From Diatrype stigma (taxonomy: Eukaryota; Ascomycota; Sordariomycetes; Xylariales; Diatrypaceae), in the NCBI GenBank assembly GCA_022225965.2, contig JAKJXP020000078.1:124001-188000 (forward strand): a DNA stretch of 64,000 bases, in the 5' to 3' direction. Positions 30,541 through 43,038 of this stretch are shown piece after piece (positions within the stretch are counted from its first letter, which is position 1; every line of letters begins with the position of its first letter). Under the pieces are notes generated by a model. It was not told where the DNA came from and did not search any database. It saw only the letters and a program-made list of their open reading frames with translations. The position numbers and the translations under genes are program-made.

Positions 30541-32058
30541 TCAAGGAAGCACCCATTCCTCACGGTGGCACGACGCATCCATGCGCTTGACGAAGTCGTG
30601 GACGCGCTCCACCATCCACCCGGAGACCACCTGCGCTTCCCCGGCAGAGGCAAAGTGTTGGCGCCCCAGCTTGATAGCAGGCGAGGTCCTGCAGGTTCGG
30701 CCGGTGAGCGAGAATTGGATGCACTTCGGGTCGTTCTCGCAGATCTGCTGGCACTCCTCGAAGGAGCCGCTGCCCGGGCCCTGTTCGGTGTCGGACAGGT
30801 TGTCCCAGTCGTCGTACCGAGGCCGAATCCTGGGGAGTACGAGTGCCCGGAATATGTCCTTGTGTCGCAGCATCGCAGTAGTCTTAATTCGTTTCAACAA
30901 GCACGGTTGTTAGTTTCGGGTTTATTTATTTCTACGATGGCATCGATAAACGAAGCAGTGGGGAAGAGATAGGAAATGCATGCAACAACTCACCTGGGCA
31001 TTCCACTCTTCCTCGAAATCAGCCAGTTGAAGGACCTCTTCGGTAGTGAGGTGGTGGTAGGTGACGGCGTAGTGACACCACAGCTTTCTGGCATTGCCGC
31101 CGAAGGAGTCCTCGAAGTCCATGGCCAGAGGGTTCTCGCTAATAATCGTCGGCCACGACCAGAAGAGGTCCACGCCCGCGTCCTTAAGCACTTTCCCCAA
31201 GACGCAGTCGCCAGCCCAATGGATAGACGTGAAATCATCATAGAACGTTAGATTCGTATTTCGATGTTCTACTAGATTTTCTAAGGCTGCGTGGGAGAGG
31301 ACGACGCCCGCGCCACCGTAGCCGAAGACGATCTCGCCGATCTTCATCTGCAACCCCATGTAGTACGGCTTGGAGGCGTCGAAGTGCGAGAGCCATTTGG
31401 CGACGTTCTTCCAGATGATAAAGGTATCGGCCTCGACGAAGATGTACCATTTGGCCTCGACGAAGATGTACCATTTGGCCTCGGGTCGGTGTCGGAGCGC
31501 CTTGTCGGCCATGGGCAGGAACTTCCACTTGTCCAGCTTCCAGCCGGGGCTGTCCCTTCCGCTGCGTGTGTTGCCCGCCGACGCCCATTCGGCCAGTTGG
31601 GCTGCTGAGAAACCCTCCATGCCGTGCGCTTGGAGCTGACGGTAGTACTCGAAATCCGGGTGCTGCGCCAGGATTGCCGGATTCACCTCGTCGAGGACGT
31701 TATAGACATGGTGGCCCTCGATGGTCTCCTCCAGATCCGAGTAGACGACGTAGTGCGGCACGCAGCGCAGCGTTGTATCGAAGTGGGCGGGAAGCTTCTC
31801 GCGCGCCTCGTTCGCCCCGGTTTTGAGCACGACTAGCATGTCGTTGAGACCGCGGACGCCGGTGGCCTCACATAAGGGTTCGGAACCATATTCTCTATCC
31901 ACGAACCACGCACCGAGCGACTGCCGGAGCTTAAACATCTGGAGCAAGATCAGGAATGCTAGGCCGACGCTGACAACCCGGTACACAAATCGAGCGTTCA
32001 CCGACGGCATCGACACCGACGGCGTGGACACTCCCGACGAGCTCTTCGAAAGATACAT
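30541..32058 (-). CDS. GT31-like Golgi glycosyltransferase with PAN-like tail
   Basis: Two exons, 32058-30994 and 30882-30541, with a 111-nt intron (GTGAGT, branch ACTAAC, end TTAAG), encode 468 aa. A single N-terminal membrane helix (VYRVVSVGLAFLILLQMFKL, about 24-43) predicts a type II Golgi protein. The lumenal part has MLVVLKTGANEAREKLPAHF, VYSDLEETI, WKLDKWKFLPM, WYIFVEADTFIIWKN (the metal-binding region of this family), FGYGGAGVVLS and a late WAGDCVLGKVL. The C-terminus has a Cys pattern, FEECQQICENDPKCIQFSL, like a PAN/Apple module. It probably transfers galactose or a related hexose to protein or lipid glycans; acceptor unknown. An 8-residue unit (AKWYIFVE) is repeated in tandem just before EADTF. 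Confidence 0.85.
31429..31476. repeat. In-frame 24-bp tandem duplication inside the GT31-like gene
   Basis: Two perfect copies (31429-31452 and 31453-31476), followed by 7 more matching bases. They encode AKWYIFVE twice, directly upstream of the EADTF metal-binding motif. Confidence 0.95.
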
Positions 32059-39300: not shown

Positions 39301-40446
39301 AAGACAATTATGTTGTAGTCTCCGGCGGTTCGGCATGTTGCGCCTCCCCCACACCGCTGACAAAGGGGTGCAGTGGGGGATTGTTGCATGCTATAGAACA
39401 TTGTCTCTAACTCCAGCTCAGGCTGACCGATAGTTGATTGTAATGTGCAGAAATAGAAGTTAAGAAGTCGAATTAACGCAATTAGGGAAAGGGGGCTGAA
39501 AGCTCGGCTACAGTATGATCTTGGTAACATATTCGTATACTTTCTGCATTTTCTGGCTGACTTCAGAATCCGCCAGCTAGTGATACAAGTGCACTTCCTG
39601 TCGTGTTCGATGACGAAGACTATCGAAGCAATTGAGGCCTGGACGTGAACCGTTTGCTTTGGGGATTCCCTAATGGCATTATAATTCAAATGTGTTTATC
39701 CACAGTCCAAGAAATATTCCTGTTGAAGGCGATGCTAACTTTCAAAGTTCTGTACGACTGGCATGTCATCTACAGATGTGGTGTCAGCCAGATCTCGAGT
39801 GTATAGTAGCCTGGTCCATGTTCGATGGCGCAACGTGTGTCAGTAAATATAGCCATTTTCGGTGAGGCATGGCTACATAGCCAATTATCGAGCGGTGTTT
39901 CTGTAGTAGCACCGCAGCCGCTGATGTGTGACAGCAAAGCATAGGATAGTTCTGCAATGGCTGAATATTTCGATGCTCTATATCAGAAGTCTAGCCTTAT
40001 ACGGTACGGTACGCAACTGGCTGACAGAAGTCCTGGATGTGTAAATATTTTTTGTTAGAGAATCTGATGGGTGCCATCGGGCCAGCTTCATCGAGCCCCC
40101 GGAGAACAGGTCTCACAAGTTGACGCACAGCCTTACCGTTCAACGGTTTCATGGCTGGACTCACCTATATATCGAAGGCCTCAATTCTATTGGCAAGAAC
40201 GGACCGGCCGGGTGAAACCTCACTGGTAACCTCGCTAGGTATTGTTGTCCGTCAAAGGCTATGCTACTTATCTGCCACCCCCTCCCCCAGGTTCTTGCCA
40301 TACAACTCCGGAATATAAGTATGACTATCTAGGACTACGCTCGAAAGACCCCCAAAGTTCGCTTCCATCAGCCATCAAGATTCTCCCTCTCCCCCCCCCC
40401 CCCCCTCCCCCTTAACCTTACAGGCCCTCGGCTTGTACTTATCATA
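36387..40446. other. Gene-poor intergenic stretch, 4 kb
   Basis: The first 100 bp are the T/G-rich 5' UTR of the small gene (CT-rich on its own strand). A frame at 38971-39132 has the look of an antisense tRNA 3' end (see findings). A run of 15 C lies at 40391-40405 just before the next gene. No other feature is supported. Confidence 0.5.
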
Positions 40447-42073
40447 ATGCCCCATCACGTGAGATACGCCAGGGACAGTACGAGGAGGCCAGAATGGACT
40501 CCTCATAACAGAGACATGTGTCAGGTCGAAGGTTGTCCCAATAGGGCCTTAGACGGCAAACGGGCCTGTAGCGATCATATATGCAAGGCCGATGACTGCC
40601 CGCTTCCGTCCAAAAAGCATTCCGCCTTCTGCAAGTTCCATCTGTGCGAGATTCCTGGGTGCTCGAACGAGAGAAAAAAAGGTGCCCGATGCCACTATCA
40701 TCTGGACTGTCTTTCTCCCGGCTGCCAGGGTTTTCGCCTTGTCCAGCATGAATCCGGGCAGTATATCGTGCAGCCCTACTGCGAGACCCGTGAGTAACAC
40801 AATTTCCGGGGCGTAAATTCATCAATTACGTGGACTGGTTACACTGACTATATTAGACATGACCTGTCGATTCAAGGGGTGCAACGATATACTCAAGGAT
40901 AGCTGGAAAGCGTATTGTGACAAACACACTTGCCAATTCAAGGAGTGTGAAAGAGGGAGAACCGAAAAATCAAGATTCTGTTCAAAGCGTAAGAACAGGG
41001 CTCCTTTTCTCCCTTTCGTTCTGCTCCACCCATTTTCACCATCTACCCAAGACTCGTGCTGACAGCCCCTATCTTCTATTGTTCTAGACAAGTGCCGGTA
41101 TCCCGACTGCGCCGGTCCAGTCAGTGGTGCCAGCGACTACTGCGATGACCACCGCTGCCGGGAGCTGTCGTGCCGGAATCCCCGGGACCCCGGCAGCCGC
41201 AGCTGCAGCGTGCACGCCTGCGTCAAGCACGGGTGCCACCACGAGCGGGCGGGCGACAGCGACAGAACGCTGTACTGCGCGCGGCACGAGTGCAAGACGG
41301 CGGAGTGCCGCAGCGAGGCATCGCCCGCGGGCGGCCACTGCGTTGAGAACGGGCACGCATGCAGGGTCGAAGGCTGTCTCGGGGCGCGCGCGGAGCCCCG
41401 CGGCACAGGCGACGCGGCCCGGTGCGGCGTCCATCTGCTCGACATGCTCGACCGGCTAGACAAGCGCAACGCGAGGGAGCTCCGCAATCTCGAGCGGGGC
41501 CGCGGCCTTTTGGAGGAGGAGAACGGCCGCCTGCGGGAGCGGGATACCCAGTGGCGTGGAAAGGTGGCGGAGCTGCGCCGTGAGCTTGACGACGTGCGGC
41601 GGACGGTGGACCAGAAGGAATTGAAGATTAAAACGCTGGTGGCGGAAAAGGAGGATAAGCGGCGGCGTCGACCACCATCACCACAACCGCCGCCCCCGCC
41701 GCCGCCCCCACAGTCGCCGCGTCGCCAGCATCGCCATCGCCATCGTCCTCGCGTGCATCAGGAGGAGCAGCAGCAGCAGGATCGTGACAGCAATGAGTGG
41801 GACACTGAAGTAGAGGTCGAAGTTGGGATCCCGCGACGATCACGCCGGCACAGCCACTATTACTACCGAGAGCGGGTGCCGGAGATGAACGAGCGACGCG
41901 TCAGGCGCTCGTTCCGCTACAGGTCTGTTTGGCCCGGGAGCGCGGACGGCTACGTGCGACGAGTGCGGAGACCCGAAAGCCCCTTGTTCAATGTGTCGTC
42001 GAGGTCGAGTTCCGAGACGAAATATTATGGTAGTAGTGACGGGTCATGCATTGTCAATACTTTCAGTATGTAG
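40447..42073 (+). CDS. Protein with eleven tandem C-x4-C...C-x2-H units and a coiled coil
   Basis: Three exons (40447-40789, 40857-40988, 41088-42073) sum to 1,461 nt, 486 aa. Residues 25-274 are eleven back-to-back units of C-x4-C-x(9-18)-C-x2-H, each separated by one or two residues, for example CQVEGCPNRALDGKRACSDH and CRYPDCAGPVSGASDYCDDH. The tenth has C-x4-H. Each could bind one zinc ion. A charged heptad-like coiled coil spans about 275-345, then a Pro-rich and His/Arg-rich region, then an Arg/Tyr/Ser-rich C-terminus. No signal peptide or membrane helix. Both introns split the His codon (C|AC) ending unit 4 and unit 6. I do not recognise a named family; nucleic-acid or protein binding is inference. 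Confidence 0.85.
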
Positions 42074-43038
42074 TATGTGAGTTTTCACGGGGGGTTAGGG
42101 GGTTAGGGGTACAGGACGTAATGCATTTTCTGGTATTTGGGTAACGGAGGTTGCAAGATGGGCTTGTGCTACGGTAATTTGTCATTCTCTGATCAGACAA
42201 TTCGGTATTTCCTTTCTCTATGATACACATTGGCTTTCTGCTCATTCCGAATCGAGGGGTTGAAAACTTGGGAGGATTTTGTGGATGATTTACCCAAATT
42301 GAAGAATTCTTCCAATTCAGACAGGAATTTAACACCTAGATCTCGGCATAGGCAAGACTGCATTGCCTATTGATTATCAGGATAGGCTTTCTTCTCTCTA
42401 GTCTAGGCTCAAGTTGAATTGCTCCTTGCTGAGAAAGGGGCGTGGTCTGTATGGGAAAGGCCGGCAGGCCTCTCATTAGCGAACCGCGGATCCCCAAGCC
42501 AATGCTCGTGGATGAGACTCGGGCAATGTGAGGTTCTTCGAACTGTGAAGTCGAACACAACGCCAAAACATTAAGACTTGTCTTCATTAACCAGGTGAGA
42601 AATTAGCGGCAATACCAGAATAGTGTCCTTGCCATTCTCACCGCGACCTCCTTTGTGGTGGCCCATAACCCATCGCCCTCCAGAAAGGACAGGGTATCAG
42701 GGGCTACGCGAACGTTCCGGGGTAGGCCACGGGCCTCATTTATCGGAGAGACCCCCTCAGGGGGCTGCTGTTCGAAAGCCATTGTTCCTTGCTAAGGTTC
42801 ATGTTGAGTCGTTTCAGACTACTTCCTTCGAAGGCAGTGTCAACTGGATTGATCACAGCGGCGTACAAGATTGACCCGAAGTTCATGTGGTAACCACTGC
42901 CTGGTCAACGAGGTCGTGGACATCTCCAACAGTTTGCTACAATCTTTATACGCTTTTTAATGAGACCTCCTAAAGTTTACCTCTTCTGTATACAGGCTTT
43001 CATTGACGGCAAACGATACTCGGCCAGCCACTATGCCT
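42074..43038. other. Intergenic between convergent genes
   Basis: 3' flanks of the Cys/His repeat gene and of the nitrilase gene. Nothing supported. Confidence 0.5.

Follow-up and report, generated by a model that had tools for sequence, protein, structure and literature searches.

Short motifs of cysteine and histidine that resemble the repeated unit discussed in this work have been filed in several separate families. The WRKY19-type finger of plant proteins (PF24906) has the skeleton C-x4-C-x10-C-x2-H and a longer, glycine-rich linker to the next cysteine, where the fungal units considered here mostly have a single residue. The EsV-1-7 motif (PF19114), which occurs in brown algae and in viruses of these algae and is known from the IMM protein, likewise repeats C-x4-C ... 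C-x2-H, with loop and linker lengths that differ from those of the fungal units. In the portions of the literature that bear on them, EsV-1-7 repeats are placed in viruses and in a protein of brown algal development whose function is not known (PMC7457493, PMC12993054). Among fungi, the text concerned with Pleurotus describes CxC5/CxC6 regions as multicopy, often near Copia elements and not found with intact KDZ elements, and DNA binding is only suggested there (PMC7641404). As for the way in which repeat arrays are laid out in genes, EGF and immunoglobulin domains, with exon borders in linkers, and nebulin, with borders in repeated blocks, appear in the pertinent pages of PMC1553488 as arrays whose exons are in register with the repeats. 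The array described below resembles them in this register, and differs in that it belongs to a fungus and that the border falls inside the codon of a probable metal ligand.

The gene that we analyse here lies in a stretch of 64,000 nucleotides of Diatrype stigma DNA, hereafter the window, which corresponds to C78:124001-188000 of a 49-Mb assembly whose gene content and homologs are fungal. Together with a single known paralog it represents a family that has no name and has so far been met only in Xylariales. On balance we lean towards seeing in these two genes a family of C3H zinc-knuckle arrays that grew from symmetric exons of one unit each, most of which were later fused. If this is right, an undescribed family of long zinc-knuckle arrays, of 11 and 17 units, is added to fungal proteomes, and the presence of two intron-containing paralogs in one genome offers a direct test of exon duplication against intron insertion. 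The initial annotation, made from the window sequence only, had made the right observation, which turns out to be larger than it reported; its interpretation was partly right, and the intron pattern is unusually clean.

The window gene and its eleven units

Spliced in silico as the join of 40447-40789, 40857-40988 and 41088-42073 on the forward strand, the window gene (40447-42073) gives a frame of 486 amino acids, with its ATG at 40447 and a stop codon that ends at 42073, once two predicted introns, 40790-40856 (67 nt) and 40989-41087 (99 nt), are removed. Residues 25-274 of the product form an array of 11 tandem units C-x4-C-x(9-18)-C-x2-H, each of about 22 residues, whose borders, like those of the paralog, were set by hand. 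All eleven begin with C-x4-C and all end with a histidine, the ending being C-x2-H in 10 of 11 and C-x4-H (CVENGH) in unit 10; the count of eleven announced by the initial annotation is therefore confirmed, while the skeleton that it took as constant is not quite so. Between the second and the third cysteine the gap is of 9-18 residues, linkers between units have one residue in eight cases out of ten and two residues in the other two, and the array holds 33 cysteines in 250 residues. Nine regular units were observed in residues 21-276; with the same expression, 2000 shuffles averaged 0.32 regular units and never gave more than 3. Tandem Repeats Finder (40400-42100, score of at least 30) returned rows in the proline-rich tail only and none in the array, which is thus no young DNA duplication.

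Exon 1 (40447-40789) encodes, from the start codon on, 24 residues that precede the array and then units 1-4 down to the first base of the unit 4 histidine codon. Unit 1 (40519-40578), with the skeleton C-x4-C-x10-C-x2-H, is followed by unit 2 (40582-40641), unit 3 (40645-40701) and unit 4 (40708-40858), which has a loop of 18 residues and a histidine codon split as C|AC by intron 1 (GTGAGT...TTAG, with a branch-like CTGAC). Exon 2 (40857-40988), of 132 nt and phase 1-1, carries unit 5 (40865-40927) and unit 6 (40931-41089), and the histidine codon of the latter is again split as C|AC, by intron 2 (GTAAGA...TCTAG, also with CTGAC). Exon 3 (41088-42073) holds unit 7 (41093-41152; 45% identity to a unit of Eutypa lata), units 8 (41156-41215) and 9 (41219-41287), whose best counterparts in the paralog are its units p15 and p16, the variant unit 10 (41291-41356; 77% identity in Eutypa lata) and unit 11 (41360-41434), with a loop of 15 residues, before the helix, the tail and the stop codon. 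Enumeration of splice pairs, within the donor and acceptor ranges that were tried, gave 12 frame-keeping GT-AG pairs for each of these introns; a single pair in each dozen combines a consensus donor with a branch-point motif, and it is each time the C|AC one. Enumeration and spliced frame thus agree with the initial claim that both introns interrupt this codon at the ends of units 4 and 6.

A second gene and its relatives in the Xylariales

A protein search of the same genome uncovered a second locus on contig C36 (L006:4384-6602, reverse strand); with four protein queries, loci were found on C78, in the window, and on C36 only, these counts being lower bounds. The spliced frame of the paralog has 595 residues and 17 units (p1-p17). 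Its three introns, 120, 116 and 194 nt long, split their codons as C|AT, C|AC and C|AC; a CTRAY motif is missing from the second of them. Exon 2, of 72 nt and phase 1-1, spans exactly one unit. Units are looser than those of the window protein, with C-x4-C in 14 of 17 and p3 ending in C-x3-H. At the three junctions the linkers of the paralog model have lengths of 2, 1 and 4 residues, and since the deposited Monosporascus protein has identical lengths there, the splice model is supported; the lengths in Microdochium are 2, 1 and 5. In p8, p9, p11 and p15 the loops are longer than in the Monosporascus counterparts, and often rich in glycine or alanine. Near this locus, a weak Myb match (L006:7866-9170) reached 24.0 bits for a cut-off of 24.4.

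Homolog searches, which reach proteins that share short words with the query and are of similar length, found three relatives, all from genera placed in Xylariales. P0001 of Eutypa lata covers window units 7-11 and the tail at 39% identity, P0002 of Monosporascus sp. is 47% identical to the paralog and keeps 17 of 17 units, and P0003 of Microdochium nivale is 29% identical. In P0003 all 14 units sought by script are present in order, 7 of 14 with C-x4-C, and the three terminal ones were recognized by eye. This recurrence of the units in P0002 and P0003 makes the 17-unit layout common to three genomes. Units 15-17 of P0003, in the C-terminal half of the protein, have very long loops rich in serine, arginine and glycine, and the array therefore also changes by loop expansion. 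P0001 begins just before unit 7, at a place that, to judge from the protein letters, would fit an AG|AC acceptor. Read by eye, the record seems to lack units 1-6 and to start inside an intron, and is probably a truncated gene model. A search with a four-sequence profile brought no new member, and no prokaryotic or viral relative was confirmed among genome contigs, viral contigs and phage records. Among the matches listed, no paper describes the family; the proteins being nameless, this is weak evidence of absence.

Helix, tail and possible role

After the array, and overlapping the end of unit 11, AlphaFold2 predicts a long helix (41411-41659), which spans residues 108-190 of the piece encoded by exon 3 and has block means above 90 from about residue 121. 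The coiled coil that the initial annotation had placed here thus finds its helix, and the pairing of two chains through it is probable. The tail that follows (41660-42070), proline-rich and then rich in arginine, serine and tyrosine, is much as had been described; residues 351-486 have a pI of about 11, and the tail is probably disordered as well as basic. The window protein and that of Eutypa lata have in common the stretches RVPEM-x-ER and FNVS, and a KRRRRPPSP stretch in the window tail has the look of a putative nuclear signal. Since the paralog has a glycine-rich tail and no helix, the array is the part that both paralogs share.

On the units themselves, AlphaFold2 gave block means of 31-49, both for exon 3 with the homologs and for a piece of two units aligned with further units and with P0001, and searches of solved structures with the window protein and two unit profiles returned nothing better than E 1.2. 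Judging from the spacing of the residues, we infer that each unit would be an independent C3H zinc knuckle, with the cysteine pair of C-x4-C and the cysteine and histidine of C-x2-H as ligands, and that linkers of mostly one residue would join these knuckles into a chain. Such a protein would most likely act in the nucleus as a multivalent binder, its target being either nucleic acid or a partner protein.

Affinities of the unit

For the whole proteins (the window protein, the paralog without its last residues, P0001, P0002 and P0003), no Pfam family reaches its cut-off. Short pieces were more talkative. The scan covered 33 of the 42 two-unit pieces of the window gene, the paralog and P0002, those of at most 62 residues (nine longer ones were dropped, and pieces of Eutypa and Microdochium were left out), and at E of at most 1 it gave CxC6 seven times, TRM13-CCCH five times, the WRKY19-type finger four times, C3Hc3H three times, and DUF5763 and EsV-1-7 twice each, together with nine further families once each. 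In one set of shuffles of the 33 pieces that kept the skeleton, none of the six families matched, and eight others came up once each, among them zf-HIT and zf-CCCH_tandem. Because pieces and shuffles both yield such one-off families, single weak Pfam matches mean little. Elsewhere, two of the 33 pieces matched the NCBIfam GvpO model (best 2.1e-4) and two a Cys-rich RiPP model (0.021), and two unnamed PHROGs families had one match each.

The likeness to CxC6 (PF18721) extends along the profile over two successive units, residues 2-43 of the exon-2 piece matching positions 11-57 of 66. Against a cut-off of 27.5 bits the whole window protein reaches 11.2, and the best printed piece score, that of units 1-2, is 20.5; and here we are dealing with 11 or 17 units followed by a helix or a glycine-rich tail, and with a gene at two loci only. 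The WRKY19-type likeness is of the size of a unit, the best Monosporascus piece scoring 22.3 bits over positions 9-22 of 24 and a window piece 15.6 for a cut-off of 27, but the window protein has no WRKY domain; a genome scan with this profile gave 7 matches, none above the cut-off and none in the window gene or the paralog. For EsV-1-7 the two matching pieces reach 10.9 and 10.1 bits, against a cut-off of 25. With the TRM13 CCCH finger (PF11722), zf-C3Hc3H (PF13891) and DUF5763 (PF19067), the likeness concerns the half that contains C-x2-H, or else the first unit. Whole proteins fail the TRM13 cut-off of 20.9 (paralog 7.0, Monosporascus 15.4, window protein unlisted), and one Monosporascus piece passes it with 24.7, over positions 14-28 of 29; the fungal proteins differ from TRM13 in having no methyltransferase match. 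In short, the unit looks like a C3H zinc knuckle and appears to belong to none of the six families that were tested. The initial statement that no named zinc-finger class fits the array holds for whole proteins in Pfam and was too strong in view of this weak C3H-type likeness. There may even exist a distant link among the CxC6, WRKY19-type, TRM13-type and EsV-1-7 motifs.

Two other identities have to be weighed. That the protein is a domesticated or decayed transposon protein, its unit being a cluster of the CxC6 type that stems from KDZ or other elements, is improbable in our eyes, even if no other Pfam family matches as many of the pieces as CxC6 (7 of 33) and if, of the two matches of a genome scan with its profile, the best is the exon-2 region of the window gene (18.9 bits, E 0.09). 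The other match, on C25, seems fortuitous, since it overlaps a frame of 832 residues that runs on the other strand. Every CxC6 score stays below 27.5 bits, no transposase was recognized by Pfam among ten open reading frames (nine from the window, one next to the paralog), and the two loci found by four protein queries, a lower bound, are not clearly multicopy, as the Pleurotus regions are in the account cited above, which does not find those with intact KDZ elements either (PMC7641404). Still less probable is a disulfide-rich or metal-buffer protein without any zinc array. The 33 cysteines in 250 residues would suit it, yet the spacing is regular with a histidine at each unit end, a hydrophobic N-terminal leader is absent when looked for by eye, a long helix and a basic tail follow, and the pieces lean to zinc motifs. 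Moreover, C-x-C pairs are typical of metallothioneins, and there is none among the cysteines of the window protein.

Origin of the array and of its introns

The equivalence of the intron positions, proposed for two introns by the initial annotation, extends to all five predicted introns in the two genes (units u4 and u6 of the window gene; p2, p3 and p12 of the paralog): each falls after the first base of the unit-final histidine codon, in phase 1. They have one phase and sit at the equivalent point of different units, as in repeat arrays with symmetric exons. Were introns placed uniformly over the arrays, the probability of five out of five at such points would be about 2.6e-10. A less demanding expectation follows from simple arithmetic on site counts: 11 of 18 in-frame CAY codons in the window array, and 17 of 29 in that of the paralog, are unit-final, so that five out of five would be met with a probability of about 0.08 if in-frame histidine codons were the targets, and of about 0.014 if C|AY could be a target whatever the frame (23 and 43 sites). 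The pattern therefore ties the introns to the histidine codon, and not to one origin.

How did this come about? Most likely, the array would have arisen by duplication of a symmetric phase-1 exon coding for one unit, with its border inside the unit-final histidine codon; later intron loss would fuse most exons, leaving two introns in the window gene and three in the paralog. That the ancestor had an intron in every unit at the ligand histidine codon, that both arrays come from single-unit exon duplication and that the remaining introns are relics is a tentative reading, to which we give somewhat less than an even chance; if true, it would rank among the few clear examples in which exon shuffling gave fungi a new zinc-binding protein. 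Several facts are at odds with our general account of the array. Only 5 of 28 units carry an intron, and up to about 21 losses are therefore needed. The intron-bearing units form no subgroup and the introns are unlike one another. In P0003 only 7 of 14 units have C-x4-C, the units of the paralog are looser, its second intron has no CTRAY motif, and AlphaFold2 offers no confident fold for the units. Across the two genes the evidence for inheritance of intron-bearing units is mixed: compared with the paralog and homologs averaged, u4 has as its best match among 17 the intron-bearing p12 (2.9), then p4 (2.5), but this depends on which sequences are averaged, the paralog alone favouring p4 (4.4, with 3.0 for p12); and u6 matches the intron-bearing paralog units poorly (1.4, 0.5 and 0.5). 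A correspondence of u1-u3 with p13-p15 was also considered, and did not stand out once homologs were averaged.

Introns may instead have been gained repeatedly, after the array was formed, at a short target, the C|AY of the histidine codon. We consider this unlikely, while it deserves to be taken seriously: within a gene, the intron-bearing units are no closer to each other than to the remaining units, their introns are unlike, and the five-out-of-five placement is not rare if in-frame histidines were the targets (less so with any frame). The preferred insertion site of introns has a consensus in which the donor side ends in AG; here it ends in C, the arrays contain 43 MAG|R sites that received no intron, and exact reuse of one base of one codon five times in two genes would require an unusual target. 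The initial annotation had proposed, besides such insertion at a repeated target, that the array grew by duplicating a unit that already carried an intron. Taken as copying within each gene with the intron carried along, this accounts for the equivalent positions and is nonetheless distinctly doubtful, more so than insertion: u4 and u6 are unalike (Z of -0.1, for a mean of 0.83), as are p2, p3 and p12 among themselves (0.6, 0.0 and -0.2, for a mean of 0.64), the introns have in common splice signals and chance words only, and no tandem DNA repeat is seen in the array.

Neighbouring frames

Two other frames of the window were recognized in passing, both on the reverse strand. Downstream of the window gene, and thus opposite to it in direction, a frame at 43042-43653 matches the C-terminal part of a carbon-nitrogen hydrolase profile. 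At 30922-32058 lies a Fringe-like glycosyltransferase frame in which AKWYIFVE occurs twice in succession, a small in-frame duplication.
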